The notes under the pieces are model-generated. The model worked only from the letters and a program-made list of their open reading frames with translations, had not been told where the DNA came from and did not search any database. Positions 62 through 53,287 of a stretch of DNA of 61,489 nt are shown here, in pieces. Location of the stretch: positions 1 through 61,489 of the IMG/VR virus record IMGVR_UViG_3300025070_000030; one strand, 5' to 3'. Source of the stretch: a virus. Numbering within the stretch: the stretch's first letter is position 1; the number at the start of each line of letters is the position of its first letter. The translations under genes and the position numbers were made by a program.

Positions 62-69
62 CCACTGCA

Positions 70-273: not shown

Positions 274-324
274 GGTTTATCCTCGCTTGCTCTTCAGTTG
301 TCCTCTGATGTAAGGCCCACATCT

Positions 325-744: not shown

Positions 745-745
745 T

Positions 746-1207
746 CTACTTCAAGCTCTTCAAGAACGTAACAAGATAAAACAGTAGCGCAGCGCCTGCT
801 ATTACTATCAAAGGCACCACAGTCCACATTATTAGTCTGTCACGCATCTTCGCCCTGTGTTCAAGCTCCTCTTTCTGCAATGCACGTTGCTTAGCTATCT
901 CAGCCTGAAGCCGCTCCCACTGCCCAGGTTTTCCATAAAGGTTAAAGATTGAACGCATCTCTTTGCGCATATTGTCCAGCTCTTCTTTACGGAAGAACTC
1001 GTCGATGCCAGCCTGTTCAGCGCCAGTCATCTTGGAAAAGATGCTGTTCTTTTTTCTGGTAGCGCCGAAGTTCAGCTCGGCCTCTGCCTTAGCATACTTG
1101 GCAATAGGACCGCCAAGAGATGATAGGTCACGGCCTGCCTTGATAGCACTGGATATAGCGCCACTAGCTGCGCTGACTGCACTAAAAGCCGTGATAGGGT
1201 CAATCAT
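746..1207 (-). CDS. Single-TM protein with DPI-type N-terminus (alternative-branch copy)
   Basis: The 153-residue protein begins MIDPITAFSAVSAA, followed by an Ala/Gly/Ser-rich amphipathic stretch, a charged helical middle (about 45-120) and a strong C-terminal transmembrane helix (about 127-150). It is a divergent paralogue of 12931..13626, which begins MDPISAMATASAA and has the same order of parts. Start and upstream stop overlap as TGATG, so translation is probably coupled to the preceding small secreted protein, exactly as in the other copy. A role in lysis or virion membrane attachment is plausible but unproven. Confidence 0.75.
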   Translation of the reverse strand: MIDPITAFSAVSAASGAISSAIKAGRDLSSLGGPIAKYAKAEAELNFGATRKKNSIFSKMTGAEQAGIDEFFRKEELDNMRKEMRSIFNLYGKPGQWERLQAEIAKQRALQKEELEHRAKMRDRLIMWTVVPLIVIAGAALLFYLVTFLKSLK

Positions 1208-1389
1208 CAGTACACCTTCATAGTCTTGCTAACGGCTTCGGGGATGCAGTACGCAGTAATCTTCTTGCCTTGGGCGTGTAGCTTCTTTGCAAAGAAAGTA
1301 CACTCCTCAATGTTTCTAAAGCGCATGACCTCTGGCACCCGCTTGGTATCTACAAAAACATACAGCGCAAAAGCAACAATCGTTTCCAC
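1207..1389 (-). CDS. Small exported protein with N-terminal hydrophobic segment
   Basis: Sixty residues: a hydrophobic N-terminus (IVAFALYVFV) that could act as a signal peptide or anchor, then a short domain with the pattern F.NIEEC...AK.L and a second cysteine in AYCIPE. The gene starts with GTG at 1389; the ATG two bases away is out of frame. It is a paralogue of 13626..13817 and shares the two-cysteine pattern with that product. Its stop overlaps the start of the next gene (TGATG). The function is unknown; the location suggests envelope or lysis association. Confidence 0.7.
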   Translation of the reverse strand: METIVAFALYVFVDTKRVPEVMRFRNIEECTFFAKKLHAQGKKITAYCIPEAVSKTMKVY

Positions 1390-1390
1390 A

Positions 1391-1561
1391 TCAGTTGCTC
1401 ATTACCAAATTAAGTAAAAGCACAATCGTCGTGCCAGCAGTGCCAATCATAATATGTTCAATGCGCTTGATGCGTAGGATAGTTTCACGCCACCGCTCCG
1501 CACATACCGCTTCATGAGTGTCGATTTGAGCTTGCACAGATGTTGCTGTAGGCTTTGCCAT
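1391..1561 (-). CDS. Small XhlA-like protein with C-terminal TM helix
   Basis: A 56-residue gene with ATG at 1559-1561 and TGA at 1391-1393. The N-terminal half holds IDTHEAVCAERWRE, a short helix follows, and a hydrophobic helix (about residues 38-54) ends the protein. The same order, with a D.HE..C motif followed by RxxRxE and a TM helix, appears in 54686..54892, the gene downstream of the other fibre allele. The layout resembles haemolysin XhlA-type proteins that accompany lysis systems. Start and stop overlap neighbouring genes (TAATG upstream, next start downstream), typical of the operon. Confidence 0.75.
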   Translation of the reverse strand: MAKPTATSVQAQIDTHEAVCAERWRETILRIKRIEHIMIGTAGTTIVLLLNLVMSN

Positions 1562-1806
1562 TAGCTTGCTGTGTACCCGTTGCCAGCCGTGATAGCAGCG
1601 TTCACTGCTGTCATGTCCTCATCTGTCCAGTAGTCTTTAGCTACCATCAGTTCCAGATGCTCGACGTTGCGGTCTACGCAACCCTGACGTTCTTCTGCAT
1701 CATCGTCTGCCATTGCATTACCTGCAATCACGTCTGTGATGAGTTGCACGGAATGACCCATAGCGGTGTAGTGCTTTGCGATTTGTTCTGCTGTAAGTTC
1801 GTCCAT
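1561..1806 (-). CDS. Conserved acidic 81-residue protein following a fibre gene
   Basis: The product begins MDELTAEQIAKHYTAMG and contains a run of Asp/Glu (ADDDAEER). It is nearly identical to the product of 4124..4369 and of its duplicate at 57262..57507. In all three places it lies immediately downstream of a fibre gene carrying the S74-type chaperone domain, so the fibre tail and this gene behave as one cassette. It could be a fibre assembly factor or chaperone partner, which is inference from position only. No TM segment or known motif is seen. The ATG is preceded by GGAGATTAAA, a good ribosome-binding site. Confidence 0.8.
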   Translation of the reverse strand: MDELTAEQIAKHYTAMGHSVQLITDVIAGNAMADDDAEERQGCVDRNVEHLELMVAKDYWTDEDMTAVNAAITAGNGYTAS

Positions 1807-1807
1807 T

Positions 1808-4105
1808 TTAATCTCCTAATCTGGATTCTAACTCAGCCACCTTTGCTGAGAGTTCTTTGATTGAATTGAGCATGTGCCAAAACAATTCATCGCTATCCAC
1901 AGTCTTAACGCCTGTGCTTTCAGTCTTTACGCATCTGGGTGCAACTGCTTCTAGTTCTTGCGCGATGACGCCAAGCTGTGTTCCTGAACGCTCTATTGCG
2001 TCAGATGCTTGAAGTTCTGTAATTTCATCTGCTGTTCGATACTCAAAGTTACGAACCTGCACTTGGTTGATAATCGACAGCCCGTCATTGTTATCAACAA
2101 TGTTTTTCTTCAGTCGTTCATCTGATGTGGTTGACCAAGACGATGAGTTGTTACCTTGATACACGCCACCACCACTAGGGCTGATAAAGCCTGTGGAGTT
2201 GCCTTTACCAACAATGTTAGCAGTACCAATAACAATTTGGTTTTGACCGTCAACACCACTTGGCTCACAGTCGATGCCCATAATTATGTTGTAATCGCCT
2301 GTCGTAATAGATTCTCCAGCAAGATAGCCTACTAAAACATTGTGACCACCATCAGTAATAGAATTACCAGCATTAACGCCTATTGCAGTATTTTGTGCGC
2401 CAGTGGTGCTGTTGTACAGGCTATTCATACCCACAGAGGTGTTATTGTTTCCAGTGGTGTTAGACACCATTGCACCCTGACCGATAGCTGTGTTGTAAGA
2501 CCCAGAAGTGTTGTTTGTTAAAGACTGGTGTCCTACAGAGGAGTTCTGTGCGCCAGTGGTGTTTGCATCTAGCGCAGCACTGCCAACAGCAGTGTTGTAG
2601 GATGCGGTGGTGTTTGCGCCAAGTGCGTTAAGCCCCATCGCTGTGTTGTCAGATGCCGTAGTATTAGCATCCAGAGCCTGATGACCGACAGCCGTATTGT
2701 TAGAACCTGTGGTGTTCGCATATAAAGTTGTTTTACCGCAAGCAGTGTTGTTTGCTCCTGTTGTTGAAAGCATTAATGACGCATCACCGACAGCGGTATT
2801 GTTCGCAGCAGTAGTGTTAGCTGATAAGGCAAGTCTACCGACTGCCACGTTGTTCCCACCAGTGGTGTTCGCGTCTAAAGCATAAGCACCCACCGCCGTA
2901 TTTTCTGCGCCAGTGGTGTTTGCGGTTAGTGCGCCATAACCAACGGCAGTGTTGCCAGAAGCTGTGGTATTCGCCTCTAAGGCTTCTCGCCCGATGCCAG
3001 TGTTAAACTCGCCAGTTGTGTTTGCAGACAGTGCAAGAATACCAAACGCACTGTTATATATTGCTGTTGTGTTTGCATCTAGTGCTTGGTAGCCAACAGC
3101 AGTAACTAGCCCCGTGGTGTTTGCTGTACCAGCCTGATATCCTACTGCTGTGCTTCCTGCGCCAGTGGTGTTTACGGCGAGTGCCTGATGACCCACAGCA
3201 GTATTGTTGCTTGCCGTTGTAGCAGTGGTGCCTTTCAGTGCTTGATAACCTACAGAAGTGTTGCTTGTGCCAGTTGTGGTGTAGTATCCCGCCTCATAGC
3301 CAAAGCCAGTGTTAACGCCAGTAGTTGTGCTATTTAGGGCAGTGTGACCCATAGCTGTGTTACCGTTGGCTGTTGTAATTGCACCACCCGCATTTGTACC
3401 AACGAGATTATTATAACTACCTGTCGTAATAGCATCACCAGCTAATGTTCCAATAGCGGAGTTTTGCACTCCAGTCGTAGCTGTGAACAATGCGTTCTGA
3501 CCTACGGCAACATTCAACCCGCCTGTGGTAAGGTTCGTTCCAGCAAAAGAACCGATGGCAGTATTCTGTCCAGCAGAAGTATTATCTGTCAAAGCAGAGG
3601 CACCTACAGCAGTATTGTTGCTCCCGGAAAGAGAACCATCATCAAGTGCAGTGTCACCCAATGCCACGTTGTTTGAGCCTGTTGGGTAGTTACCGTCTAG
3701 CTTGATTGTACCGCCGTCTGTAGAAAAGTTACCAGCGTTGGTGATGCCATCTGTCGTGGCTTCGCCGTCAATGTCTATAGTGCCAGTGACAGTCAGATTA
3801 CCACCCACACTGAAGTCGCTGTTCACATTACCACTGAACACACTAAACACGTCATACACTACAATCTCAACTACATCGCTTGCAGTCAATGCCGACAAGC
3901 CAGCAATGGTGTTCGCTGTGCTTGTGTTGTAGTCCGTACCAGCTACTAGGGTCACACCATTCAAGTTCACGTCAACATAGTTGCCGTCAGTGAATGTCAG
4001 GGTGCCACCTGTCAGCGCACCGCTGATTGATGTCTCACCGCCTGATGCAGTGAAGTAGTAACGATTACGTACACCCTGTGATGGTGATTTGCCTAAGTAA
4101 GCCAT
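1808..4105 (-). CDS. Tail fibre with beta-roll repeats and S74 chaperone domain (allele A)
   Basis: The 765-residue protein starts MAYLGKSPSQGVRN, a virion-anchoring N-terminus also found in 54892..57243. Residues about 140-590 are a long array of units like NTAVGYQALDANTT, resembling the left-handed beta-roll repeats of trimeric adhesin heads. The C-terminus holds SDERLKKNI followed by GVIAQELE, the signature of the peptidase S74 intramolecular chaperone that trimerises and then cleaves itself off; in this family cleavage falls at the Ser-Asp of SDER. A coiled coil ends the chain. The first ~95 residues match allele B, whereas the last ~115 match the fibre at 4371..6455, so the gene is a mosaic. 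It is a likely receptor-binding fibre. Confidence 0.88.
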   Translation of the reverse strand: MAYLGKSPSQGVRNRYYFTASGGETSISGALTGGTLTFTDGNYVDVNLNGVTLVAGTDYNTSTANTIAGLSALTASDVVEIVVYDVFSVFSGNVNSDFSVGGNLTVTGTIDIDGEATTDGITNAGNFSTDGGTIKLDGNYPTGSNNVALGDTALDDGSLSGSNNTAVGASALTDNTSAGQNTAIGSFAGTNLTTGGLNVAVGQNALFTATTGVQNSAIGTLAGDAITTGSYNNLVGTNAGGAITTANGNTAMGHTALNSTTTGVNTGFGYEAGYYTTTGTSNTSVGYQALKGTTATTASNNTAVGHQALAVNTTGAGSTAVGYQAGTANTTGLVTAVGYQALDANTTAIYNSAFGILALSANTTGEFNTGIGREALEANTTASGNTAVGYGALTANTTGAENTAVGAYALDANTTGGNNVAVGRLALSANTTAANNTAVGDASLMLSTTGANNTACGKTTLYANTTGSNNTAVGHQALDANTTASDNTAMGLNALGANTTASYNTAVGSAALDANTTGAQNSSVGHQSLTNNTSGSYNTAIGQGAMVSNTTGNNNTSVGMNSLYNSTTGAQNTAIGVNAGNSITDGGHNVLVGYLAGESITTGDYNIIMGIDCEPSGVDGQNQIVIGTANIVGKGNSTGFISPSGGGVYQGNNSSSWSTTSDERLKKNIVDNNDGLSIINQVQVRNFEYRTADEITELQASDAIERSGTQLGVIAQELEAVAPRCVKTESTGVKTVDSDELFWHMLNSIKELSAKVAELESRLGD

Positions 4106-4123
4106 TAACGGTTCTCCGGTTTA

Positions 4124-4369
4124 TTATTCGGCAGTGTAGTCTTGACCTGCTGTGATTGCAGCGTTGACTGCTGTCATGTTCTCATCTGTCCAGTAGTCTT
4201 TAGCTACCATCAGTTGCAGATGCTCAACATTGCGGTCTACGCAACCCTGACGCTCCTCTGCATCATCGTCTGCCATTGCATCACCTGCAATAACGTCTGT
4301 GATGAGTTGCACGGAATGACCCATAGCGGTGTAATTCTGTGCGATTTGTTCTGTTGTAAGTTCGTCCAT
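4124..4369 (-). CDS. Conserved acidic 81-residue protein following a fibre gene
   Basis: This product (MDELTTEQIAQNYTAMG at the start) is identical to 57262..57507 because it lies in the long repeat, and differs at about ten positions from 1561..1806. It follows the fibre gene 4371..6455 by one base and has GGAGATTAAA before its ATG. The acidic cluster DDDAEER and the C-terminal DYWTDENMTAVNAAI region are conserved among the copies. No known domain is recognised. Strict linkage to S74 fibres suggests a fibre-related role. Confidence 0.8.
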   Translation of the reverse strand: MDELTTEQIAQNYTAMGHSVQLITDVIAGDAMADDDAEERQGCVDRNVEHLQLMVAKDYWTDENMTAVNAAITAGQDYTAE

Positions 4370-4370
4370 T

Positions 4371-6455
4371 TTAATCTCCTAATTTGGATTCTAACTCAGC
4401 TACTTTTGCTGAGAGTTCTTTGATTGAATTGAGCATGTGCCAAAACAATTCATCGCTATCCACAGTCTTAACGCCTGTGCTTTCTGTCTTTACGCATCTG
4501 GGTGCAACTGTTTCTAGTTCTTGTGCGATGACGCCAAGCTGCGTTCCTGAACGCTCTATTGCGTCAGATGCTTGAAGTTCTGTAATTTCATCTGCTGTGC
4601 GGTACTCAAAGTTACGAACCTGCACTTGGTTGATAATCGACAGCCCTTCATTGTTATCGACAATGTTTTTCTTTAGTCGCTCATCCGATGTAGTTGACCA
4701 AGACGATGAGTTGTTACCTTGATATACGCCGCCGCCACTAGGGCTGATAAAACCTGTGGCGTTGCCTTTACCTACAATGTTTGCAGTGCCGATAACAATT
4801 TGATTTTGACCATCAGCACTACTAGGCTCACAGTCAATCCCCATAATCATGTTGTAATCGCCTGTCGTAAGAGATTCGCCAGCAAAGTAACCTAACAAAA
4901 CATTGTGAGAGCCATCTGTAATAGAGTTACCAGCATTTTGTCCTATTACCGTATTTTGACCTCCAGTCGTACATACTTCTAATGATGCGTGACCAACAGA
5001 AACATTATTATTAGCCGTTGATAAAAGAAATGAACTTGCTTTGCCAATTGCTGTATTATTTGCACCCGTTGTAAGGCTAATCATAGCCGCGTCACCAATC
5101 GCCGTATTGTTAGATGGCGTGGTCAGTGAGCCTAGAGCATGTCTACCCACAGCAACATTGTTGGTTCCAACAGTGCAAGCGTCCAAAGCCGCAAAGCCAA
5201 CTGCCACATTTTCTGCGCCTGTGGTGTTTTCTGTCAGCGCGGCAACACCTACAGCAGTATTACTTGAACCCGTTGTATTTTTCTGTAACGCCCCACCATT
5301 TGTTTCATCATTGCCCCCGACAGCTACGTTTGAGTTGCCTGTGGTGTTTTCGCGTAAAGCATAAGAGCCAATCGCTGTAACGTGACCCGTTGTATTTGCC
5401 GACCCAGCCTGATAGCCAATTGCGGTATTGCGTGAGGCAGTGGTGTTTGCATCTAAGGCAAATGCACCAACAGATGTGTTCTGATTGCCAGTGGTGTTTG
5501 CAACTAATACTTGATACCCTAAAGCAGTGTTATTGCTTGCGGTAGTATTTGCCGCTAATGCCCCTTGACCTGCCGCTAAATTATTATTTCCTGTTGTGTT
5601 CGCAGTTAGTGCGCTTTCCCCCAATCCTGTGTTTCTGCTGCCCGTTGTATTTGTATCAACTGCACTTTTTCCTAACGCAACATTGCTTGTGCCAGTGGTG
5701 TTTTCGGCTAGAGAGTTATACCCAACAGCCGTATTGTTAGATGCGGTGGTGTTTTGTTTTAGCGCAAAGGAACCCAATCCCACATTCTGTGCGCCTGTAG
5801 TAGTAACGTACAGAGAACGATACCCCATACCTACATTGTTTCCATCACCAGTAGTAGTCGTGGTGAGTGCGTCTTTACCAACCGCTGTGTTGTTTGACGC
5901 TGTTGTATTATTGCCTAAAGCACTATGACCCATTGCAATGTTGTTACTGCCTGTCGTGTTTGATTGCAAGGCGTATGGGCCAACAGCAGCGTTGCTTGTG
6001 CCAGTGGTGTTTGCGGTCAGTGCATCATAACCAACAGCCGTATTGTTATTTGCTGTTGTATTGCTATCAAGCGCACCGTATCCACAGGCAGTGTTGTTCG
6101 CTCCCGTGGTTGTGGACTCTAAAGTTAAAGAACCAACACCCGTGTTTGAAAAGCCTGTTGTAAGAGATGTCAGAGAGTTGTAACCAACAGCTACATTAAA
6201 ATCGTTTCCGCTATCTGTAACATTATAGGTAGTCATAGCGTTTGCACCGATGGCAGTGTTTCTGCCGCCAGTGGTATTACTGTCTAATGCAGTATCTCCT
6301 AGTGCAACATTCTGTGTGCCAACAGGGTGATTGCCGTCCAGCTTAACCGTGCCGCTATCCTGCGAGATGTTACCGCCAATAGTTATATTGTCTACAGTAA
6401 CGGTGCCACTGAAGTCCTTATCGGCTGCATCTGCTAAGTCTCTTGCTCTAGTCAT
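4371..6455 (-). CDS. Tail fibre with beta-roll repeats and S74 chaperone domain
   Basis: A 694-residue fibre with a short N-terminus (MTRARDLADAADKDF) unlike alleles A and B, then about 24 repeat units of the type NTAVGYDALTANTTG up to residue ~560, and a C-terminal S74 chaperone domain with SDERLKKNI and GVIAQELE plus a final coiled coil. The C-terminal ~115 residues are nearly identical to those of 1808..4105. The start overlaps the stop of the upstream fibre as ATGA, so the two are co-translated. The repeats are predicted to fold as a trimeric beta-roll stalk or head that contacts the host surface. The gene is duplicated at 57509..59593 within the long repeat. Confidence 0.88.
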   Translation of the reverse strand: MTRARDLADAADKDFSGTVTVDNITIGGNISQDSGTVKLDGNHPVGTQNVALGDTALDSNTTGGRNTAIGANAMTTYNVTDSGNDFNVAVGYNSLTSLTTGFSNTGVGSLTLESTTTGANNTACGYGALDSNTTANNNTAVGYDALTANTTGTSNAAVGPYALQSNTTGSNNIAMGHSALGNNTTASNNTAVGKDALTTTTTGDGNNVGMGYRSLYVTTTGAQNVGLGSFALKQNTTASNNTAVGYNSLAENTTGTSNVALGKSAVDTNTTGSRNTGLGESALTANTTGNNNLAAGQGALAANTTASNNTALGYQVLVANTTGNQNTSVGAFALDANTTASRNTAIGYQAGSANTTGHVTAIGSYALRENTTGNSNVAVGGNDETNGGALQKNTTGSSNTAVGVAALTENTTGAENVAVGFAALDACTVGTNNVAVGRHALGSLTTPSNNTAIGDAAMISLTTGANNTAIGKASSFLLSTANNNVSVGHASLEVCTTGGQNTVIGQNAGNSITDGSHNVLLGYFAGESLTTGDYNMIMGIDCEPSSADGQNQIVIGTANIVGKGNATGFISPSGGGVYQGNNSSSWSTTSDERLKKNIVDNNEGLSIINQVQVRNFEYRTADEITELQASDAIERSGTQLGVIAQELETVAPRCVKTESTGVKTVDSDELFWHMLNSIKELSAKVAELESKLGD

Positions 6456-8011
6456 TCTCCGGCCTCCAACGTGGCTATACGAATTTCGAGTTCCTGAATG
6501 GTTGCCACAAGCAACGGAACCAGCTTCGATTGGTCGATGCCCTGATAGTCCGGCACAGAGCGCGTACCCATTTCTGCGGGTGTTACCTCATTGCCATCAT
6601 CGTCAAGAACCGCTGGTGTGACTTCGTATTGCTCTTCACACATAGCGTCTTTAGTTCCACTGACACTCTCCGGCACAACGGCCTGTGCCTCATGCGCTAA
6701 AAACCCGTCAACCGTTGTGTCTGCGTCAGAAATGAAGTTGAAGCGCACAGGATTGAGTTGTTTCAGCCTGTCGGTTGCGTTGGTGAGTGGCGTAACCGCT
6801 TCCTTTAGGCGATAGTCTGAGGATGTATTGTAGGCTGTTGAAGCGCCGTTGGTCTGTATTGACCCGACATTTGCGCCATTGCGTCTAAAGATGACTTGGG
6901 TATGTGTGTTTCCACTCGTGTCTGTGCTGTTCATCATCAGACCCGGACCATTATTTGAATTGTATTGGTGCGAAATATCCTCGCCTTGAATTGCACTGGT
7001 CGTGCCTTTACACATGCGCCCATCACTTTGGATGCGGAGGCGCTCCGTATTGCCAGTGCCGAATATAATTCTACCACTTTCACAATTATTCAGAATTGCA
7101 TCAGTGCCAATCAGCGCAAACTGTGCGCCACGATTAGAACCACTGGCTGGGTCTGAAAGTTTTAAATACGCGCCACTATCATCGTGGATATGTAGCACCC
7201 GTGAAGCACCAGCTACACTTACCCCAGCCAGTGAAGAGTCAATGGTTGGGTCATTCGTACCCATACCAATGCCCTTTGTTGCGCCTTCAACAACAAAAGA
7301 GTTGGCATCGCCAAGAGACTCAACACGGAAGTCTAGGTCTAATGAACTTTCGTTAAATACAGTTTCAGTAGCACCAAACTTAACGCTTTGCTCAACACTA
7401 CCGCCTTTTATCGTGCTTATATTTAGTGAGGAAGATTCATTGCCGTGAGCATTGTTGGTAATTATACTTTGAATATTTGCATATTGCTGGTCGTTGCCAG
7501 CGCCATCTTCACCGTGAAACAAAAGTTGACCTATTAGGTCGTTATCAGCAGGAGATGCACTGTTTCTGTAAAACTTTAATACTGGACCTTGAGTTGCATC
7601 CGCATCTGTAGACACAAGTGTGAGTTGCGGGTCGTTGTCGGCAGTGGTGATTGTGCAGCCGTCAGTTGCGGTGAACCCGCCCGTCACAGAAACACCAGAT
7701 GAGGTGGTTTCTAACTTTGGCACGTTGTTGAAGTTCAACTCAACTTTACCGTCCGACACACACTGTATCATTGTCTCGCCAGTGTACTTTTGAAGCGAAA
7801 TGTTATTGCCCCTGATTAGAAACGTGCCGTTAGCATATGTCTCATCAATATAGGCGTTTGTACCATCGTGGTACATTTCAAGTTTTCCAGAAGAAAAAGA
7901 AACCTTGTCACTGTCGCCAAAGTTAGCGTTGCCGTTGAACTCAGCATCACCAGTAACAGTCAGTTCGTCTGCCGTGTTAAATCTTGATATACCTGCGCCG
8001 ATATAACCCAT
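6452..8011 (-). CDS. Tail fibre/spike with classical S74 chaperone domain
   Basis: The 519-residue protein begins MGYIGAGISRFNTADE, a typical marine-phage fibre N-terminus, followed by beta-rich sequence (about 20-390) including a GRMCKGTTSAIQGE turn region. The C-terminus has SSDYRLKEAV, the S74 cleavage and activation motif, and a GFLAHEAQAVVPE core, followed by IQELEIRIATLE coiled coil. This is a different S74 subtype from the neighbouring beta-roll fibres. It overlaps the next gene by four bases (ATGA). It probably forms a self-processed homotrimer on the tail. It is duplicated at 59590..61149. Confidence 0.88.
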   Translation of the reverse strand: MGYIGAGISRFNTADELTVTGDAEFNGNANFGDSDKVSFSSGKLEMYHDGTNAYIDETYANGTFLIRGNNISLQKYTGETMIQCVSDGKVELNFNNVPKLETTSSGVSVTGGFTATDGCTITTADNDPQLTLVSTDADATQGPVLKFYRNSASPADNDLIGQLLFHGEDGAGNDQQYANIQSIITNNAHGNESSSLNISTIKGGSVEQSVKFGATETVFNESSLDLDFRVESLGDANSFVVEGATKGIGMGTNDPTIDSSLAGVSVAGASRVLHIHDDSGAYLKLSDPASGSNRGAQFALIGTDAILNNCESGRIIFGTGNTERLRIQSDGRMCKGTTSAIQGEDISHQYNSNNGPGLMMNSTDTSGNTHTQVIFRRNGANVGSIQTNGASTAYNTSSDYRLKEAVTPLTNATDRLKQLNPVRFNFISDADTTVDGFLAHEAQAVVPESVSGTKDAMCEEQYEVTPAVLDDDGNEVTPAEMGTRSVPDYQGIDQSKLVPLLVATIQELEIRIATLEAGE

Positions 8012-8020
8012 GATTATTCC

Positions 8021-8350
8021 TTACGTAATTTCAAGAATAGACAAAGCAACGTCTGCGCTAGATGCGACATTTGACGTAACTTTCAAGACATCACTTGCGT
8101 TCATAACTACTTTCTGTTCACCGCCCACAACAACAAGGCTGCTACCCACAGGAATAGGTGCATCCTTTACAATGTAGATATTGTCACCGTCATTGTTCTC
8201 AAGCTGTACATCTACCTCAATCTGTGAGGTGTGAATGTTTGCAATCGACATGCCAATGATTGTTGTTTCGGTAGAACCAGCACCAGTATGAACCGTGGCA
8301 GCGGAAGTGCCTACTCCAGTGTCTGTCACCAGTTTAAATGAGTTTGCCAT
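8021..8350 (-). CDS. Small beta-rich virion protein
   Basis: The 109-residue protein (MANSFKLVTDTGVG) is rich in Val, Thr and Ser with alternating hydrophobic residues, as expected for a small beta-sandwich. Its layout resembles the 119-residue product of 12301..12660, and both lie among tail genes. It is the first gene after a perfect consensus promoter (8371..8399) and has GAGGG before its ATG. It may be a tail or fibre-attachment protein. The identical copy at 61159..61488 is cut off from this promoter by the window end. Confidence 0.75.
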   Translation of the reverse strand: MANSFKLVTDTGVGTSAATVHTGAGSTETTIIGMSIANIHTSQIEVDVQLENNDGDNIYIVKDAPIPVGSSLVVVGGEQKVVMNASDVLKVTSNVASSADVALSILEIT

Positions 8351-8370
8351 TGGTATCCCTCTTCGGATAT

Positions 8371-21400: not shown

Positions 21401-21617
21401 TGTTTTTTACTACTGCCTCGTAGCTATCCTTCAGTTGAAGGAGGGTTTCCAGTAAAGCCAGCTTCCCCTGCAACTGGCGCAGTTCCGACTCCGATTGTGC
21501 CGTTACCACGGCCCGAATCGTCAAGTCCTTGAGGTCCGCTAGGTACTCCCGGAGCGGCTCCCATTCCTTGCTGTTGAGCATCGGGGCCAGCTTGCGGGCT
21601 TGGTCCTTGTTGAGCAT
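21393..21617 (-). CDS. Small helical protein overlapping the portal gene 3' end
   Basis: A 74-residue frame (MLNKDQARKLAPMLNSKEWE, ending in a LQGKLALLETLLQLKDSYEA helix) that starts inside the portal gene in another frame and ends seven bases into the next gene. It overlaps the portal by 194 bases. AAGGA lies ten bases before its ATG. The product looks like a genuine amphipathic helical protein rather than a chance frame, and it fills the otherwise empty step between portal and the 840-residue gene. It may be a head-completion factor. Confidence 0.72.
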   Translation of the reverse strand: MLNKDQARKLAPMLNSKEWEPLREYLADLKDLTIRAVVTAQSESELRQLQGKLALLETLLQLKDSYEAVVKNNG

Positions 21618-23544
21618 TTTGCATCATTCCTTGTAACATCTGTGCGTATACTTGCGCTTCGTTTTGATCGTTGACTAGGCTGTCAGGATCAATGTCCTGT
21701 GAGATAGCCAGTTCACGCATCAAGTTTGGTATCTTTACGAACGGAGCAAGCATGGGGTTAGCTACAGTCTGTAGCAACGAGGTAAGACGCTGTGTGCGGA
21801 CTTCTTTTTGCATGACGGCTGCAACGCCACGCGGTTTGATTTCTAGGTCGCCTGTGATGTCCTCAATGTTTTCACCAAACTGCATGTTCCACTGAAAGAA
21901 CGCTTCACCGATTGGCTTGAGGAGATGGTCGTCAATGTTTTTAATGACGGTCTTCATGGACAGTCCAGCGGAACCCATCAGCATGGACAGACCTGCAGCG
22001 GTACGTCCTGTTCCCGTGACTCCTGTTTGACCGTGAGTGATGGATGGTATGCCCGTCTCTTCGTCAGCAAGCTGCCGTGATATCTGATACATCTGAATGT
22101 TTTCACCGGCTGTGTTTGGAAACTTGAGTCCGTTGACAGCGGTGCCAGTGACTCCAGACTGACGGCGGAATATCTTGCCGGGAAAGATGTCCATGTTTTG
22201 TCCGGGAACAAGGGACGCTTCGTCCACGTCAAATACAAGGTTGCCAGCGAGGGCAAGATTGTCGATTGCCATACGAACGTGACCATTCATCAGCATCTGT
22301 GCGTCTTCCATGTTTTCCGCAACGCCAACACCCCAGATTTGATAGGGGTTGATTTCAAACGGAAACGACTGGTAGGGTATACGTGCCGGTGTGAATGGAT
22401 TCAGCACACAACGAAGGATCATTGTACCACACACCCAGATGTTGACCTGCATTTGGTCAAACTCTGACATGTTCTCTGCGCCCTCAAAGCCTACTTCTTT
22501 TGCAAACTTAGAGTCAAGGACGCCCCAATACTCAAGAACTTCGTATCTGTTTTCAGAAATGTGTGGTTCTGTTTCGTCTTCACGAATGGTGTCTTCGTAG
22601 TATTTATCTTCGTAGTTTGGTCCTTTTGCAAGGCACTCTTCGATTGCTTGGGCGTCAAAGTGTGGGCGCATGACAAGGCTGCGTAGCTGCTGCCGGTTCA
22701 TACGGTGCCGTTCGATGACGTACTCGCAGTCTTCTACAGACGTGGCGGAGGGATCAGGGTGAAAGTCCCAACACGAAACGTGTTCAATGCGGGGCACAGT
22801 GCGTTCGTACGGGGTGTACTCCCGCTCACCCTCTTCGTTAGTTGTCCACTTGTGTACCCGCTTGTAAAAGTTAAACGGGCCTTTGATCACTCCCGTACCA
22901 AACAGTGCTGACTCAAAGATAGCTTTGCGAAACTCACTGACGGCGTTGGTGTCAAGCAACTGATCGTGGATACACTTTTCCATCTTTCGTGCTTGTTCTT
23001 TTGCAGGTTCAAACTGTGGTTCACCCACACGAGACTTGCCCGCAAGGATCATGTCACCAAAGTCTTTACCGTACGATCCCAGTTTATGTGGATCATCCGC
23101 CCTCATGGCACCGGGTGCTAAGTCACGGCCATCTCCCGGAAACCCGTATGGATCACTTGGTTGTTGGTCTAGTTCGTCAGCGGGGGTACGCATGTGAGCA
23201 AACTCTTCAATGCCTTCTGGCATCGGAGTTGACTCCACGACAAGTGGGAACTTTTTGTTGGCAAACAAGATGTCGATAATTTGCCCGTACGCAGCAAGGA
23301 CTTTTGTTTTGGTGATCTTGATGAACACCTTTGATCTCTCGCTGTCGCGGTACTGCGTTGTACTGTCGTAGATTCCACGAAAGTTTTTGTACGCTTGCAG
23401 CCATCGCTGTTCGTTTGAAAACCGTCCGTTCTCTGCGTCGTCAAACCGTGCCCGTATGTGACCCGCAAGTCCGGGCATCTGCTCGTCAGGATTGGTTATC
23501 GGAATCGCTCGTTCTTCTTCCGGTTCTAGAAAATTATCGGACAT
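21424..23544 (-). CDS. Portal (head-tail connector) protein
   Basis: The 706-residue protein has the layout of podoviral portals: an N-terminal helical part with RWLQAYKNFRGIYDS, a core including VSCWDFHPDPSATSVEDCEY and CVLNPFTPARIPYQSFPFE, a stem/crown region with TGVTGTGRTAAGLSMLMG, and a low-complexity Gln/Gly/Pro C-terminus. The HPDP and FPF motifs recur in portals of this group. It follows the terminase region and precedes scaffold and capsid. The final 194 bases also encode a second protein in another frame. Confidence 0.9.
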   Translation of the reverse strand: MSDNFLEPEEERAIPITNPDEQMPGLAGHIRARFDDAENGRFSNEQRWLQAYKNFRGIYDSTTQYRDSERSKVFIKITKTKVLAAYGQIIDILFANKKFPLVVESTPMPEGIEEFAHMRTPADELDQQPSDPYGFPGDGRDLAPGAMRADDPHKLGSYGKDFGDMILAGKSRVGEPQFEPAKEQARKMEKCIHDQLLDTNAVSEFRKAIFESALFGTGVIKGPFNFYKRVHKWTTNEEGEREYTPYERTVPRIEHVSCWDFHPDPSATSVEDCEYVIERHRMNRQQLRSLVMRPHFDAQAIEECLAKGPNYEDKYYEDTIREDETEPHISENRYEVLEYWGVLDSKFAKEVGFEGAENMSEFDQMQVNIWVCGTMILRCVLNPFTPARIPYQSFPFEINPYQIWGVGVAENMEDAQMLMNGHVRMAIDNLALAGNLVFDVDEASLVPGQNMDIFPGKIFRRQSGVTGTAVNGLKFPNTAGENIQMYQISRQLADEETGIPSITHGQTGVTGTGRTAAGLSMLMGSAGLSMKTVIKNIDDHLLKPIGEAFFQWNMQFGENIEDITGDLEIKPRGVAAVMQKEVRTQRLTSLLQTVANPMLAPFVKIPNLMRELAISQDIDPDSLVNDQNEAQVYAQMLQGMMQNAQQGPSPQAGPDAQQQGMGAAPGVPSGPQGLDDSGRGNGTIGVGTAPVAGEAGFTGNPPSTEG

Positions 23545-23553: not shown

Positions 23554-23772
23554 TTAGTAGTCGCGTTCGTCTGCCATTTTAAAAAGTGAAGCTTCTACCG
23601 TAGCTTTTGTTTGCTTCTTTGGCATTGCTTCGATCATTGGGCCTGTCTGTACACGAGTGTCGAATTCCAAACCTTCGCGGTACAGTTGTGATGCGCCTTC
23701 GTCTTTATCAACGCTGGTCTTATCTGCGTTCATAATGTACGATGCACCGTAGTTGTAGTTATTACCGGGCAT
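23554..23772 (-). CDS. Small protein between recombinase-like gene and portal
   Basis: Seventy-two residues beginning MPGNNYNYGASYIMNADK, with a polar, largely unstructured composition and a basic KKQTK segment. It starts 29 bases after the recombinase-like gene and ends nine bases before the portal start. A good ribosome-binding site (GGGGAGA) precedes the ATG. The function is not recognised; small head-completion factors are often found here. Confidence 0.65.
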   Translation of the reverse strand: MPGNNYNYGASYIMNADKTSVDKDEGASQLYREGLEFDTRVQTGPMIEAMPKKQTKATVEASLFKMADERDY

Positions 23773-23801: not shown

Positions 23802-25640
23802 TTAGATAGTAATGCGAGGGTCAGCTTCTTTTTCCCTCTTTGGAACAAACCCCTGCTCGTCGTCGGGTATATTTCCAAATTCATCTCCAAAGTCGTACTG
23901 GCGGTCTTGCGCCTCTTGCATCATGGAGGGTATTTTCATATCTTGTTTTTCGCGGGAAAGTGCGCCAGTTGCCATTTCGACTACTACTCCTGCGCCGCCT
24001 CCCATTCTTGGCAAAAAGTCGGTTGTTTCTTGGCCTAATTTTTCAGCCACAAACTCCTCGCCTTTTCTTTGTGCAACATCGTAGGGGTCTTCTGCATCAC
24101 CAACAAATGTCTTTTCTATAACGGCTGCACTCAAGTCGGCAACAGGTCCGGGAACAACTTTCAAGGCTGCAAGACTTGCAAGGGAACCAGATTTGAGCGT
24201 AGAACTAAGCTTGTCCCACAATCCAAGTCTTTTTAATTTTTCTATAGTTTCGTCGCTGATGTTGCCTTCGGGTGTGTCGCCTGTTTGATCAAGCTTAGAT
24301 GCACGAACATCTGCCCGTATTTCTTTCTCGCGCATGCGGCGTAGTTCATCGGCTTTTACTTTTTCTATGTCAACTTCTGCTGCCCTAGCTATTTCTTCTG
24401 GGGTTACAGAAGCCTTTGCCTTTATTTCTTTGGCTTGCGCCTCTGCAACAGCAGCCCCTGCAGCAGCCCGTCTTGCTTTTTCTTCTTCAATTATTGTAAG
24501 CTTCTGATCTTCTATCAGTGCCGCCCTGTCCTCATCAGACAGAAGGTCTATATTGATATTCTTAGGCGTTGTGCCGAAATCTCCCACTGCAAAACTGGAT
24601 GGATTTTCAAGAAGTTTAGGAATATCTGTTGACGGCGCAAGACCTGCATAGTTTTTACGAAGAATGCTGTCATTGACATGCCCCATTACTCCCTGTACAA
24701 GTGCCTCTGGAATGTTGTATTGATCCAACATAATTTTAGGAACAATAGAGCGTATGGCAGAGGGGGTAGTAACTGGCTTTTCAGAAAGCTGTATTCCGTC
24801 TGGACCTTCAACTTTTATTTCTGCAAGAGGTAGTAACTCTGAATACTGTTCAAGACGAGGGGTAATATGCTTGGCAAACGCATCGTCAAAATTTGCAGTG
24901 CTAGTATCAAATAAAAATTCAGACTTAGTTGAGTCTAGATTTCTTTTAAGTAGTTGACCCGTTGGCGAATCTAAATCAAAAGTTAGAGGAGGGCGTCCCT
25001 TTTTATCAGTTTTTGTTACTTTTTTACCGGCTACTGTTATTGTGTTGTTTGAAACAGTAACGTCAGATTTCTTTAGACCTTGTAATTGAGAAGGTCTGTG
25101 AGATGTTGTCGCATGATACTTTGCAAGATCGGCGGTGGCTTGCCCGTACTCTGCTTGAATAAGGGGCACAGCTTCAGCGTACATCTTGGCAAAGTCTTCC
25201 ATTGGAAGAAGACCACGCATGGGACGCTCACCCGCCATGCCTGTGCGTTGAGTTCCAGCTACAGTCCCCGTGCCCGTAAGCTGTGGGTACATGGCTACTT
25301 CAATATCGCTGCCCGGAACTTTCTCCATTACACCGGAGATTGCATACTTACTAAACAAATCTTTTATGTTGTTTTCTAACGCTTGAAGGTTAGGCGCACG
25401 ATTTGATTTGTCTGGGCTATTTTCTTTAGTAAAAAGTGTTAAAACCTTATCGTCTTTAAGGTCTTTGTAGGGCATGGTAATATCCAAGCCCATTACCTTA
25501 AAGCCTGAAGTAAGTGTGCCTATTCTTTTTTTGGCGTTGGGGCTGGTTGTCGGACGTGATCTAGCAAAGCTGATAGCTTCTTCCACGGTAGCGGTGCCAG
25601 CCTTCATCTTTTCTACAAACTCTATTTCAGTGAGTGCCAT
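23802..25640 (-). CDS. Tyrosine recombinase-like protein with long C-terminal extension
   Basis: A 612-residue protein whose first ~340 residues carry the tyrosine recombinase pattern. A helical core-binding region with KDLFSKYAISGVME comes first. Then follow Arg182 in HRPSQLQGLKKSDV (box I), a beta hairpin ITVAGKKVTKTDKKGR with the expected Lys, Ser294-Ala-Ile-Arg297 in place of H-x-x-R, Gly-His321 in VMGHVND and Tyr331 in NYAGL. Only the box II His is changed, to Ser. The C-terminal ~270 residues add a charged coiled coil (370-450) and a hydrophobic segment near 475-500. It sits between terminase and portal, an unusual place for an integrase. It may act in genome-end processing, integration or virion assembly; the fold is supported, the role is not. 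Confidence 0.75.
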   Translation of the reverse strand: MALTEIEFVEKMKAGTATVEEAISFARSRPTTSPNAKKRIGTLTSGFKVMGLDITMPYKDLKDDKVLTLFTKENSPDKSNRAPNLQALENNIKDLFSKYAISGVMEKVPGSDIEVAMYPQLTGTGTVAGTQRTGMAGERPMRGLLPMEDFAKMYAEAVPLIQAEYGQATADLAKYHATTSHRPSQLQGLKKSDVTVSNNTITVAGKKVTKTDKKGRPPLTFDLDSPTGQLLKRNLDSTKSEFLFDTSTANFDDAFAKHITPRLEQYSELLPLAEIKVEGPDGIQLSEKPVTTPSAIRSIVPKIMLDQYNIPEALVQGVMGHVNDSILRKNYAGLAPSTDIPKLLENPSSFAVGDFGTTPKNINIDLLSDEDRAALIEDQKLTIIEEEKARRAAAGAAVAEAQAKEIKAKASVTPEEIARAAEVDIEKVKADELRRMREKEIRADVRASKLDQTGDTPEGNISDETIEKLKRLGLWDKLSSTLKSGSLASLAALKVVPGPVADLSAAVIEKTFVGDAEDPYDVAQRKGEEFVAEKLGQETTDFLPRMGGGAGVVVEMATGALSREKQDMKIPSMMQEAQDRQYDFGDEFGNIPDDEQGFVPKREKEADPRITI

Positions 25641-25643: not shown

Positions 25644-27314
25644 TTAGTATCCGAATACTTCGTCTTGAACTTGGTGGACGTGGTTCTTGATTGCACCCAG
25701 TTGTTGGTGTATGGAAGCGTAGCCACTCATGCGTGTCATCATTCCGTAGCGCAACGCATCGTATGCGTGATCCTCTGCCTTTGTATCTACATCTTCGCTG
25801 TTTGTTTTGGAGAGCGGTATGCCAGCAATCTGTTTGACTATGTTGCTGCACGTAGAAAAGAAGCGGATGCGTGGTTCCTCTGTGTACGGATTGTCAGCTA
25901 GGCGGCGGTGTATTTCCATTTTGCCTTGAATGCGGTTGCGGTCTGCTGGTGTCCAGCGAACACCCTGTCGCATCATTACCTCTGCAATCGAAGGTCCAAA
26001 ACCTGTCTTGTTCCAGCAAGACGAGTCAAGGACCGTGTAGTGTGGTAATGGGTCTAGTTGTTCTGCTGCTAGTATTCTATCAGCTAATTGTTCTGCTGTC
26101 AAGTGTTTTTCGTATAATTCTCTGTAAATCCAAATGTTGTCGTCCCAGTCGATTGCACCCCACAGAACACACGAGGGTGCAGCGTACCCGTAGTCAGCCA
26201 TCCGTATGCGCGGCCAGTTGGTTGGCAGTTCGAACGGTTCAACGACGTGCTTGGTGCGGCTGAACTCTGGGAAGGCCGCTCCCTCTGCCACGTCCCAATC
26301 CCCTTCAAGAAGTCGCTTTCGTTCAACATCCGGGAGCGATCTGAGCATGGCCTCATACTGGCCGTCTGCCATCAGATGGGGATTGTCAGTCAACCGTGCC
26401 GGTACAAACTTACGAAAGAACAGCGGCTGACCTGCCTTTTCGTGGCCGGGGGGCCACACAAAGTCTTTTTTTGTCTCTATATCGAACGCAGGAAAAGGTT
26501 TGTTTTCTGGAGTTCCGTCGATGTAGGTTTTCTTGACCCACCAACCACCCACTCCTCCGGGGTTGGCAGTGCAGCGCATGTACAGGTGTTGCTGGAGTTC
26601 AGGATCAGTAGTACGAAGGCGAGAACGCAGGTAATCCCAGACGTAGGGTGTAGGATATTGGGTAATCTCATCAATGCCTATCCAGTTGAACGCTTGTCCC
26701 TGAAAGCGAGTTACGTCTTTGTCTTTGTCTAGGTAGGTGAACCAGATTGTTGCTCCGGAGGGAAAGTGCCACGTTGACTTGGACTCACGAAACTTTGCAC
26801 CGGGAAAAGCTTTTGTGTATAGCTGGCGTGACTTGTCGATCAGTTCGGTTAGTTCGTCCAGAGTGCGACGAAGCAGTAGACCGCGATGGTTGCTATTGTG
26901 ACAAAAGCGTAACGGGTCTGCAAGAAGCGCGAAACTTTTTCCACCACCGGCTGCACCACCGTATAGTACGTCGCGTTCACCAGCAGACAAAAACTCTTCT
27001 TGAGGCCCAGCGTTGGGCTGGAATACAATCTCACTGTCCTTGACCAACTCTGAAACGGCACTAGGCAGTTCAGACAAATCTCCTTGATCAACGACTTTAG
27101 TTTCCGTACCAACAAGTGCCTTTTCTACCTTTGTTATCTTTGCTTCAAGATTGCGGGCGTATCTGCGTTTGTCTTCGGCTGCTTTTGTTGTTTTGGCTGC
27201 GCGACGTTTGGCCCCGTTCAGTTTCTTTTGGGCAGCACGACGGGCACGTTCCTTTACGGACAGGTTGTACGAGGCTTTGGGTGCGTTGGGGTCTTTCTTA
27301 GGGCGTCCTGCCAC
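25644..27314 (-). CDS. Terminase large subunit
   Basis: The 556-residue protein has a basic N-terminal leader (1-65), then the packaging ATPase with Walker A GGAAGGGKS (119-127), Walker B IGIDE (212-216) and a coupling motif in CTANPGG. The C-terminal RNase H-like nuclease is marked by RMADYGYAAPS, YTVLDSSCW and a late EDHAYDALRYG acidic motif. It cuts and pumps DNA into the prohead through the portal. The next gene downstream begins three bases later. The motif set is complete. Confidence 0.95.
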   Translation of the reverse strand: MAGRPKKDPNAPKASYNLSVKERARRAAQKKLNGAKRRAAKTTKAAEDKRRYARNLEAKITKVEKALVGTETKVVDQGDLSELPSAVSELVKDSEIVFQPNAGPQEEFLSAGERDVLYGGAAGGGKSFALLADPLRFCHNSNHRGLLLRRTLDELTELIDKSRQLYTKAFPGAKFRESKSTWHFPSGATIWFTYLDKDKDVTRFQGQAFNWIGIDEITQYPTPYVWDYLRSRLRTTDPELQQHLYMRCTANPGGVGGWWVKKTYIDGTPENKPFPAFDIETKKDFVWPPGHEKAGQPLFFRKFVPARLTDNPHLMADGQYEAMLRSLPDVERKRLLEGDWDVAEGAAFPEFSRTKHVVEPFELPTNWPRIRMADYGYAAPSCVLWGAIDWDDNIWIYRELYEKHLTAEQLADRILAAEQLDPLPHYTVLDSSCWNKTGFGPSIAEVMMRQGVRWTPADRNRIQGKMEIHRRLADNPYTEEPRIRFFSTCSNIVKQIAGIPLSKTNSEDVDTKAEDHAYDALRYGMMTRMSGYASIHQQLGAIKNHVHQVQDEVFGY

Positions 27315-27316: not shown

Positions 27317-27520
27317 CTATTCTTTCTCTGCTGAACCTTCTGCAGAACGTCCCTTTGCATTGGGGTTAGCTTCGTTCCACATACGCATACCTTCAGTTAC
27401 TTTATCTTTGTCTCCACCGTAAACGCGATTCAAATGGTTGTATGCTTCACGCTTGGTCATTTCGGTAAAGTCAGTTGTCAAGTCTTTTGCGGCTCTAACC
27501 ACGTCTTTAAAAAATTCCAT
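27317..27520 (-). CDS. Small helical protein between terminase subunits
   Basis: A 67-residue protein (MEFFKDVVRAAKDLTTDFTE) made largely of charged helix with a polar C-terminus. Its start overlaps the stop of the small terminase gene by one base and it ends just before the large terminase gene. It could be an accessory packaging factor, judged only by position. Confidence 0.65.
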   Translation of the reverse strand: MEFFKDVVRAAKDLTTDFTEMTKREAYNHLNRVYGGDKDKVTEGMRMWNEANPNAKGRSAEGSAEKE

Positions 27521-27930
27521 CAGTCTGTTCCTTCTATCACTACTTCTTTTTTGGGCGGAAGGAGGACTACACCGTGAACCGCCGTTACGTTGTGGTTGAT
27601 TTGTTCCGCTTGTTTGACTCCTACGCGGTTCAGGAGGCTTTCGGCAGCTTTGAGACGTAGATCATCACCTCTTTCGGGGGCGGGATTGTCTATTGTCGCT
27701 ACAAGTCTGTTGGCTGCTTTGAATGCGTTCATAGATAGCACGTCTTTTGTGCGTTCTACTATCTCATCTGCCAATGTTTTGCGTAACCACGACGCACTAC
27801 CCACAGAATACCCTGCATCTGTGGCTGCAGCGGTGATATTTCCGCCGTTTTCAAACAGTATGTCAAGAAAAAGGGACTGTTGGGTGGTTAGTTCCCGTTT
27901 TTTGGCGGGTTGTTGGGGCATCAGGTTCAT
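27520..27930 (-). CDS. Terminase small subunit
   Basis: Read from ATG 27930 the product has 136 residues. The N-terminal half shows KKRELTTQQSLFLDIL followed by GGNITAAATDAGYSVGSASW, the helix-turn-helix DNA-recognition pattern of phage small terminases, then a helical oligomerisation region (LRLKAAESLLNRVGVKQAEQ). The C-terminus has a VVLLPPKKE strand. It recognises viral DNA and recruits the large subunit. The upstream open frame to 28038 overlaps another gene and is not used. Confidence 0.85.
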   Translation of the reverse strand: MNLMPQQPAKKRELTTQQSLFLDILFENGGNITAAATDAGYSVGSASWLRKTLADEIVERTKDVLSMNAFKAANRLVATIDNPAPERGDDLRLKAAESLLNRVGVKQAEQINHNVTAVHGVVLLPPKKEVVIEGTD

Positions 27931-27932
27931 TT

Positions 27933-28133
27933 TTACGTGGCTTCTCCAGCTTTGGTAGTGCATCGTGTGCCCGAAACAATCATAAACGGTGTTATTTCTT
28001 GTACGTTGCCTATCATCACCTCTACACGAGCCATACATTCCTCTTTTGTTTTGTATGGACCCCAGTCGTCAGTGACTACCATACATCCCTGCATGGCATT
28101 TATGTGACAAATGAGTAACATTGCTGTGTACAT
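27933..28133 (-). CDS. Small exported protein, first gene of the late operon
   Basis: Sixty-six residues: a hydrophobic start (MYTAMLLICHINA) that may be a signal peptide, then CMVVTDDWGPYKTKEECMAR and a C-terminal cysteine in SGTRC. The pattern of a hydrophobic N-terminus followed by a K.EEC motif and a later cysteine recalls the exported proteins at 1207..1389, 13626..13817 and 33025..33201. It is the first gene after the promoter at 28256..28284. Function unknown. Confidence 0.65.
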   Translation of the reverse strand: MYTAMLLICHINAMQGCMVVTDDWGPYKTKEECMARVEVMIGNVQEITPFMIVSGTRCTTKAGEAT

Positions 28134-43533: not shown

Positions 43534-43585
43534 AATACGTCACAACGTGTAAATTCTACTTATCAGTTGTAGCGTATAAGATGTA

Positions 43586-43659
43586 GGGGTGTAACTTAAA
43601 TGGCTAGAGTATCTGTATACGTTCAGAAGTGTGCGGGTTCAAATCCCGCCGCCCCGCCA
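43586..43659 (+). tRNA. tRNA-like sequence, structurally defective
   Basis: A cloverleaf can be drawn: acceptor GGGGTG/CGCCCC, then TA, D arm ACTT/GAGT with AAATGGCTA loop (A14, GG), anticodon arm TCTG/CAGA, five-base variable region, T arm GCGGG-TTCAAAT-CCCGC, then G and an encoded CCA. Two defects stand out. The acceptor has six pairs (a seventh would be A-G), and the anticodon stem has four pairs with an eight-base loop, or five with a T-T mismatch and a six-base loop. The anticodon is therefore not assignable (ACG if T33 is 43618). It may be a decayed tRNA or an attachment-site mimic of a host tRNA 3' end. Confidence 0.5.
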
Positions 43660-45017: not shown

Positions 45018-48000
45018 TTATATCTCCTCCACAGGATTTAATTCTTCGATTCTTTTTCTCTGTACTTCTTCTAGTCTTCTGTCGTCTTTTGTGACGATTT
45101 CGTCTTGTGACAGTATATTCTCTTCTCCTAGAATTTGTTCCAGTGTAGGAACTTCTCCACCGTTACGAATAATGTCACTCGCTACATAGTTTTGAATTCT
45201 CAAGTTAAACAGTTTTAAATCTTTGCGTGTGATTTCTTTTGGTCTGTTTAACATTTTTGACATGATTCTTGCAGCAACCCTATCGTTCAGTGCAAAAGAA
45301 ATTAACGACTGATTACGTTGCATCATAGTACGCACACTAACTTCAGTTGCGACGTAGATAGGACTAACCATTCCTCGTGCCAAGTTAAACACACGAGAGA
45401 ACACACTCTCCACAGACATGCCTTGCAGTTCAGGATTGGCCCTGAATCCCATGCCATTACCTATAGCAAAGTCAGCCCACTCTGATATGTTTTTCATTAT
45501 CTCAAAGTGTTCATCCCCCAAGACAGATCGCATTACCTTTGCGTGTCGTGGGGTGTTTACGTAGTCAATGAGTACGGATGAGTCTGCAATAACCTGTGCG
45601 GGTTCGTTTGCTACTATTTCTGTTTTCTTGCCTGATTTTATTTCAAGCCCACGAATATACATGTAAGCCATAGCAGAACGAACTTCTTTTTCGTTCATGC
45701 CCTGCGCTACAAAGCGTTGCACATGCCTATTAATACTATCCTCATTTGCGTTTTCAAACACAGTGTCAAAGAACTGTTTGGGGTTGTTAATTAGATTGTC
45801 ATATCCCCCCATTATCTTTAAAGTGTTGGCGGTAGCATCTACCTCTTGCTGTGCTGCAGTGCGTATTGCACTTTTGTTGTTGTTTAACGCTTCTTGTGTT
45901 TCTGTGTATGTTTTCCGTGTTACAGAATCGTGCTTTAGTAACTCGTCTAATTCTACAGAGAAATCTCGTATTTCAGGTAAAGCAAGATTACGAACTTCTA
46001 ACGGCCCTTCTGCACCATTTCGTGTAACCACTGATAAAGCCTCTTGCACTTGCAGTATTCTAGCTGCACGATCAAAGTCGTAGTCTTGACCCTCTCTTAA
46101 TCTTTGTATAGCCTCTGATTTTGATATGGGTCCAGTCTTTGCCCCTATGCCTATGGGGGTAGTCGCGTCCAATGCGTTGTTTAGCATTGATTGTGCTGAA
46201 TCCGCTACTTCTTTACCAATTAAAGTTTGTAGTAAACTTTGCATTGTGTCTGCAACTGCCCTCTGTTTACCATCTGACAAATCAAAACCGTAGCCTTTAA
46301 CGGCACCATCGTTCATGTACCCTGCGCCATACCAGTACATGATCCTATCTTTTTCGTCCATGATTTCTTTTAAAATCAAACCTCTTGCGGGGCCATCTGT
46401 TTCTTCTACAGCCTTTCGGGCAAGCACCGCTATATTTTTAAACGGTGCAATCGGTTTGTCAGCGGGTATACGGTAAAAATGACGACCTTCAGTTGGGTCA
46501 GCCGACTTGACATCTTTACGTGTTCTTCCGTTGAATACTTGACCAGCGTATCTACCCTTGTCTGAAGTTTCACCTATCAGTGTTTCATGGGTTTCTCTAG
46601 CTAGTTTTGCTAACCTAAGAAGTTCTCCAGAACTATCAGAAGCAGCGTATGCCTCATCAACTGCTTCTTTAAAAGTGTCATCTAATTCAGCTATGGTTTG
46701 ATTTTTAGCGGTTGCCTGATGATCCCTAAATGCACGATAGATATTCTCTGACTCTTCTACACTGGCTTTGAAGTAGTTGATTGAATCTGCTTGACCTTCT
46801 GCTGCTTCATCCATAAGATACAGGGCTAGGTCAGTATGATTCTTTATCTTGGGGTTATTCATCACAGCAAGATCAAATAGGTAAGGCAGGTCGTCTCCAT
46901 ACTCTTCTCGCAGCCCTCTCATTGCTGCAGATTCAAATGAAGCTTTTGCACGGGCACCGTTACCGGTGTTAAAAAACGATCCTGCTTGTCCAAGAAAAAA
47001 TGTAAACGGCTGGTCTTTAAATTCGTCAGTCTTGTTCATAAGGGTTTTAGCCATCACAGACAAGTCCACAGATATGCCCCTTTCGCCAGCATACGTGGTT
47101 ACATCCCCATATGCCTGACTGACCTTTGATCTGCGAACTCCCTCAGTTATATCAAATATCTTATCGGCAAGTACGTTTGCTTGTTTAAGAACTTCAGAAC
47201 CATCCAAAGTATTTCTGAATCTTTGTAGAGCAGCAGCCTGTAGTCTGCCGTTCTCTAAAATTTTAACTGCAACTTCTGCAGTAACTCTAGCTTGTTCAAC
47301 AGGATCACGTATGTCCTTTTCTGTAAGTTCCATCTTAAAAGAGACAATTCGTTTAAGTGTGTTTTCGTCTACCTCCCCTAGTTCATTCATGTACATATCA
47401 ACAAGACCGTCAGCCTGTTGTTTTTTAAGATTCAACTTCTCAAGACCATTAGTGGCTACGTTTTGTAGTTCAACCAACATGTTTTGCAGCATGTCATTTG
47501 AGTCCATGTCAATGCCAGCCTTTGTAACAAGGCTTTGTTGTAAGGTTTTAAGCAACGTGTCCAAACCCTTGTAGTTTTCTTCTTCCGCTGCTAACGATGC
47601 CATTAACTCGTCAAACTTACCAGCATTCCTTAAATCATCTGGTGCCAACCTTCTGCCATTCCTTGCTTGAATAGCAATGAGAGGGGCTATACCCGTAGCG
47701 TGGGCTAAAGACAGGTGCAGCGTGTTCATGTTTTTAGAAATCTCTGCATCAGAAAGGATAGGAGTTCCATCTTGTGATTTTAGATTTCTCATTGTGGTTT
47801 CGGCGTTTTCCATCACTTTGTTGTAACGCTGAATGGACTGAGTAAAACGAAGCTGATACTCCGGTTTCATTTGCTTGTACACGTTTGATAGTGTTTTAAA
47901 TGCTTCTACGTTTCTATCTGTTACGGCAATATCTGCCTCACTCATAATTTTACGCAGTTCTGCCTCGTCCCCTCTTGCAATAATTCCCGGAGTTACGTAA

Positions 48001-49883: not shown

Positions 49884-49896
49884 TACCAGTAATTCC

Positions 49897-52320: not shown

Positions 52321-52323
52321 CGT

Positions 52324-52878: not shown

Positions 52879-52882
52879 GCTG

Positions 52883-53278: not shown

Positions 53279-53287
53279 TTGTTTTTC

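Follow-up and report, generated by a model that had tools for sequence, protein, structure and literature searches.

A tyrosine recombinase encoded between the terminase and portal genes lies in a hypervariable slot of a viral clade

HMO-2011-type phages are a dominant and widely spread group of marine phages (PMC9038755). The early integrases of the group (HMO-2011, CRP-1/2/3) are about 300–320 aa long and are encoded upstream of the replication module (PMC6918029, PMC9038755). One phage of the group that has an early integrase, CRP-3, has been shown to integrate at a tRNA-Met (PMC6918029); subgroups without an early integrase have been inferred to be possibly obligately lytic (PMC9038755). 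In the literature covered, which was partial and consisted mostly of titles and abstracts, no title or abstract reports a recombinase between the genes for the terminase large subunit (TerL) and the portal protein.

The DNA analysed here is an IMG/VR record of 61,489 bp, and the whole stretch is referred to as the window. It comes from an uncultured, probably marine podovirus of bacteria that is of the HMO-2011 type. The nearest relatives of its TerL and portal proteins are found in the Pelagibacter phages HTVC115P and HTVC033P, the roseophages CRP-603 and CRP-2, and HMO-2011, at about 46–57% identity. Positions 3711–8351 are repeated exactly at 56849–61489, an overlap of 4.6 kb at an offset of 53,138, and the genome is therefore probably a circle of about 53 kb with a strain variant of the fibre locus at the contig start; alternatively, the overlap is a real duplication. 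The sequence flanking it diverges on one side (1–3710 versus about 53400–56848), and this part covers the tail-spike region. Two tail-spike-like genes (765 and 694 aa) lie at 1561–6455, each followed by an 81-aa ORF; they contain internal repeats with a 51-nt period and form a duplicated fibre cassette. Large late ORFs of 1621, 807 and 464 aa at 45018–54682 have no PHROG match.

The recombinase gene, its fold and its catalytic residues

The first-pass annotation had placed a tyrosine recombinase between terminase and portal, in the packaging module. This layout holds and the position is that of a late operon, with TerL upstream, the portal gene downstream and a 72-aa gene separating the recombinase from the portal. 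The features of the region are as follows.

27520..28038, minus strand: probable terminase small subunit
25644..27314, minus strand: TerL, upstream flank of the slot
23802..25640, minus strand: slot tyrosine recombinase (TYR), 612 aa, ATG at 25640
25281..25640, minus strand: N-terminal helical domain, presumed core-binding/arm, residues 1–120
24591..25202, minus strand: catalytic domain, residues 147–350
25095–25097, minus strand: R182
24999–25001, minus strand: K214, the beta-hairpin Lys
24759–24761, minus strand: Ser294, at the box II His position
24750–24752, minus strand: R297
24678–24680, minus strand: H321
24648–24650, minus strand: Y331
24291..24512, minus strand: long helices, Ala/Glu/Lys-rich, residues 377–450 in the AlphaFold2 model
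23805..24212, minus strand: hypervariable C-terminal module, residues 477–612, mostly disordered in the model
23554..23772, minus strand: 72-aa gene between recombinase and portal
21424..23544, minus strand: portal protein, downstream flank of the slot

The recombinase ORF starts 3 bp past the TerL stop. The 72-aa gene is also present upstream of the portal in HTVC033P, where there is no recombinase, and thus it is no dedicated partner of the enzyme; this occurrence, together with the lack of a family match, speaks against it as an excisionase.

The 612-aa protein matches Pfam Phage_integrase (PF00589) with E=1.8e-5 and 25.1 bits, below the curated cut-off of 27.1, while a six-frame search of the whole record gives 27.3 bits, above it; the match to the PHROG_1 integrase family is at 5.8e-9. 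Scores so near to the Pfam cut-off may explain why such slot genes get missed. An AlphaFold2 model built on a 26-sequence alignment has pLDDT of about 70–96 for most of residues 1–350, lower in the loop 123–137, and beyond residue 350 it gives long helices (377–450) and then an unstructured end. In a Foldseek search of the PDB the top matches are all tyrosine recombinases, most at probability 1.00, namely Tn1549 Int, XerH, lambda Int and XerA, then Cre and P2 Int, so the core fold looked for by the first-pass annotation, with lambda Int among its references, is present. A PDB profile search also found XerA, its catalytic motifs lining up with those of the recombinase, and the model of L062, the representative of a distant cluster, folds as a tyrosine recombinase as well (matches to XerA and Cre). 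Among cultured phages, tblastn found no relative of the protein.

Conservation was assessed in 13 representatives with less than 60% mutual identity, the relatives going down to about 17–20% identity (about 17% over the whole alignment). R182, K214, R297 and H321 are kept in 13/13 of these non-redundant relatives and Y331 in 12/13; the TerL–recombinase–portal order, too, is conserved in relatives. Just eight columns are shared by 12 or more of the 13 (T18, R182, K214, F244, R297, G320, H321 and Y331), and five of these are catalytic. The hypergeometric p for this is about 8e-11, an approximation in view of the relatedness of the sequences and the choice of K214 among invariant hairpin lysines. 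T18 belongs to a conserved motif of the N-terminal domain, GT-(A/L)-T-V-x-EA, in which it is invariant. The catalytic residues named earlier are thus in place, including the hairpin Lys, and the box II His is Ser294, a position that varies among relatives. The box II His is also missing in the HMO-2011 and CRP-603 integrases (MDLRR), and its absence is therefore not decisive. The dN/dS of the core is 0.10–0.23, indicating purifying selection. It can be stated firmly that the protein is a tyrosine recombinase, conserved and under selection, and its residues suggest that it is catalytically competent and enzymatically active. The loss of Arg or Tyr that would have spoken against this is not seen in the window's own family; in some distant slot proteins, Arg replaces the box III His (H321), and a few are without an aligned Tyr, so not all of them need be active.

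Turnover of alleles and tails in the terminase–portal slot

The survey of the slot took in 132 loci whose TerL and portal genes share one orientation, some of the loci coming from the same contig. The gap is at most 30 bp in 37 loci, 0.2–0.95 kb in 15 and at least 1.2 kb in 80, and in the last group it is filled almost always by one ORF of 319–1051 aa. Sinorhizobium phage phiM6 departs most clearly from this, having several genes in the gap. The cargo of rhizobial relatives includes an SGNH hydrolase in phiM6 (L017 5222–6829) and, in RHph_N3_19 (L018 7174–9723), an 850-aa protein judged by eye to be flavin-dependent oxidoreductase-like. When 56 slot proteins were scanned, PF00589 matched 20 and phrog_1 matched 20; in others, Arg-I, Arg-II, His/Arg and Tyr can be recognised as motifs. 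The remaining assignments were made by motifs only, for cluster 2 with the L062 model in addition. Profile–profile comparison links clusters 1 and 2 to the canonical cluster weakly, with E-values of about 5e-4 to 8e-4 and probabilities of 25–33%. On a TerL+portal tree, with labels that are partly motif-based, the slot states cluster strongly, with 14 changes where shuffled labels give 51 on average. The slot holds a recombinase in 37/37 crown-clade members, and the TerL–recombinase–portal order is fixed in one viral clade.

Two observations on the records themselves may be added. The 867-aa TerL ORF of L198 (6735–9335) has an apparent intein-like insertion after an NPGG motif. L193, L195, L194 and L197 are contigs of equal length with the same match coordinates, binned in a Flavobacteriales MAG and a Marinimicrobia MAG; because of such double binning the host labels of these contigs are unreliable.

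Beyond what the first-pass annotation had noticed, the slot proves to hold a hypervariable cassette. In phages whose TerL proteins are 92–99% identical, the recombinase cores share just about 20–25% identity: the values for TerL and slot protein are 98% and 24% for the window and L120, 99.4% and 20.6% for L141 and L078, 96.9% and 22.9% for L063 and L059, and 96.3% and 22.8% for L128 and L032. Between the window and G015, similarity is lost precisely at the TerL stop codon and picked up again where the 72-aa gene begins. L090 has no slot gene, whereas L147 and L101, with flanks 95–98% identical, carry two differing ones; the recombinase is therefore dispensable. Given isolates, these near-isogenic natural relatives make its role testable. 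The slot of L084 contains a canonical XerD-like core (31% identity to XerD over about 200 residues) within a 979-aa fusion, possibly a separate recruitment.

The C-terminal part is exchanged as well. The protein extends about 260 residues beyond the core, close to the 270 described earlier, and the extension is real; its hydrophobic segment (about residues 490–508) is modest, with a mean hydropathy of 1.57 over 19 residues, and the last 130 residues or so are of low confidence in the model and swapped between relatives. The tails of L061 and L102 are 70% identical while their cores have no BLAST similarity apart from a 16-residue stretch, showing that C-terminal modules are shuffled independently of the core. 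Sequence comparison with other ORFs of the loci found no similarity to the tails outside slot proteins. In 69/83 slot proteins the most hydrophobic peak is located among the last 265 residues, compared with 40/120 portals (33%), 28/124 TerLs (23%) and 49/175 other ORFs (28%). The peak values are equalled by portals and other ORFs and the enrichment is in C-terminal position only, so hydrophobicity by itself is a weak argument. Five short slot proteins without a recognised core (L086, L136, L094, L098 and L095) have a hydrophobic stretch at a comparable C-terminal place; in another, L091, there is none. Taken from sequence, this pattern suggests association of the tail with membrane or virion. 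Fixed position, wholesale replacement among near-identical phages and a shuffled tail make up an unusual evolutionary pattern.

Possible roles of the recombinase and its DNA substrates

The data suggest an enzyme whose class is known but which has taken on a new role, more than they suggest an ordinary integrase. Our leading explanation, a tentative one, is that the protein is an active, late-expressed accessory tyrosine recombinase which carries out site-specific strand exchange on phage DNA and is possibly carried in the virion. It would be expressed late together with terminase and portal, it would act on phage DNA at specific sites, and each allele may have a DNA site of its own; it may also stand in for the early-region integrase, which genomes with the slot recombinase lack. 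Part of the protein could be packaged, enter the next cell with the DNA and, hypothetically, circularise or integrate the incoming genome there. Our confidence falls along this series, from late expression through substrate and allele-specific sites to virion delivery. Packaging would be the most likely route because the enzyme would be made together with virion proteins and has a shuffled C-terminal tail, usually with a hydrophobic segment such as is also found in slot proteins without a recognised core. The fuller version, in which a capsid-packaged and co-injected recombinase allows integration or circularisation without new gene expression and phages diversify by swapping slot alleles, is on the unlikely side.

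Possible substrates within the window were considered. A tRNA-like element at 43585–43657, proposed earlier as an attachment site, genuinely matches the Rfam tRNA family (42.9 bits, missed by ARAGORN) and ends in an encoded CCA. On one side of it the RNR gene ends and on the other lies a partial second copy of the RNR 3' end; the element is absent from the three closest genomes compared, all of which have a slot recombinase of a different allele; nothing therefore ties it to the enzyme, and as attachment site it was rejected on these grounds. The fibre locus, also suggested as a target, has no inverted-repeat pair flanking the window's fibre genes, and its inversion by the recombinase is thus not supported. 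Packaged or concatemeric DNA, another target suggested earlier, is a possible one.

It is somewhat unlikely, in our judgement, that the gene is an ordinary lysogeny integrase moved into the packaging operon, which remains unpackaged and integrates at a host site, the alleles standing for differing sites. PF00589 is found in an early-type gene of about 300–390 aa in HMO-2011, CRP-603, G025 and ctYwJ313, none of which has a slot recombinase, and no record among those searched has both. This mutual exclusion fits such an integrase but is only suggestive, because it rests on few near-complete genomes and many records are fragments. The replacement of alleles would also resemble the exchange expected under selection for different attachment sites, and CRP-3 offers a precedent of integration within the group. 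Against this stand the late-operon position and the long shuffled tail. Moreover, a short peptide-pattern scan of 84,980 species genomes, in which the hosts are poorly sampled, found no prophage with a slot recombinase, and 0/20 portal-bearing genome contigs carry a copy. No attP or attB was found in our searches, no repressor was recognised, and among the proteins scanned no excisionase was recognised, the sole regulator match being a very weak one to a transcription regulator. The failure to find a prophage, an attachment site or an excisionase counts against the leading explanation as well. A clade with an easily missed recombinase in its packaging operon reopens the inference of an obligately lytic life for such phages, assuming that they belong to the subgroups concerned (PMC9038755).

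A late-acting resolvase, which would resolve genome multimers or shape concatemers for packaging in the producing cell, is improbable: the 3-bp distance from TerL and the XerD-like core of L084 would suit it, but L090 and the HMO-2011 clade, which packages without it, lack the gene, allele turnover is left unexplained, and a scan of the window for dif-like sites, made with one E. coli-type pattern that may not be that of the host and with up to 3 mismatches allowed, gave none. Least probable of all is a catalytically idle recombinase fold that serves the virion as DNA-binding pilot or ejection protein. The tail, the operon position, the occurrence in relatives of short slot proteins lacking any recognised core and the loss of His in distant members agree with it, but the catalytic residues are strictly kept in the window's family against a background of about 20% identity.

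Comparison with known systems

The slot protein shares its fold with the tyrosine recombinases (PF00589; Tn1549 Int, XerH, lambda Int, XerA, Cre), and Arg-I, Lys, Arg-II, His and Tyr follow one another in it as they do there, at matching distances. Unlike these enzymes, it has a variable box II position, Ser in the window, and an extension of about 260 residues with a hydrophobic, shuffled tail, and its gene lies between TerL and portal with alleles swapped among near-identical phages. The early integrases of HMO-2011-type phages belong to the same virus group and the same superfamily, and those of HMO-2011 and CRP-603 share the missing box II His, but their profile comparison with the window's cluster is not significant. 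Host XerC/XerD are approached by the slot core of L084, which however is part of a fusion in the TerL–portal slot. With podovirus ejection proteins the slot recombinase shares the late module, long helices and a hydrophobic C-terminal stretch; no sequence similarity to them was detected, and the slot gene is missing in some close relatives. The packaging proposed here for the phage recombinase may be likened to that in retroviruses, which carry their own integrase in the particle.
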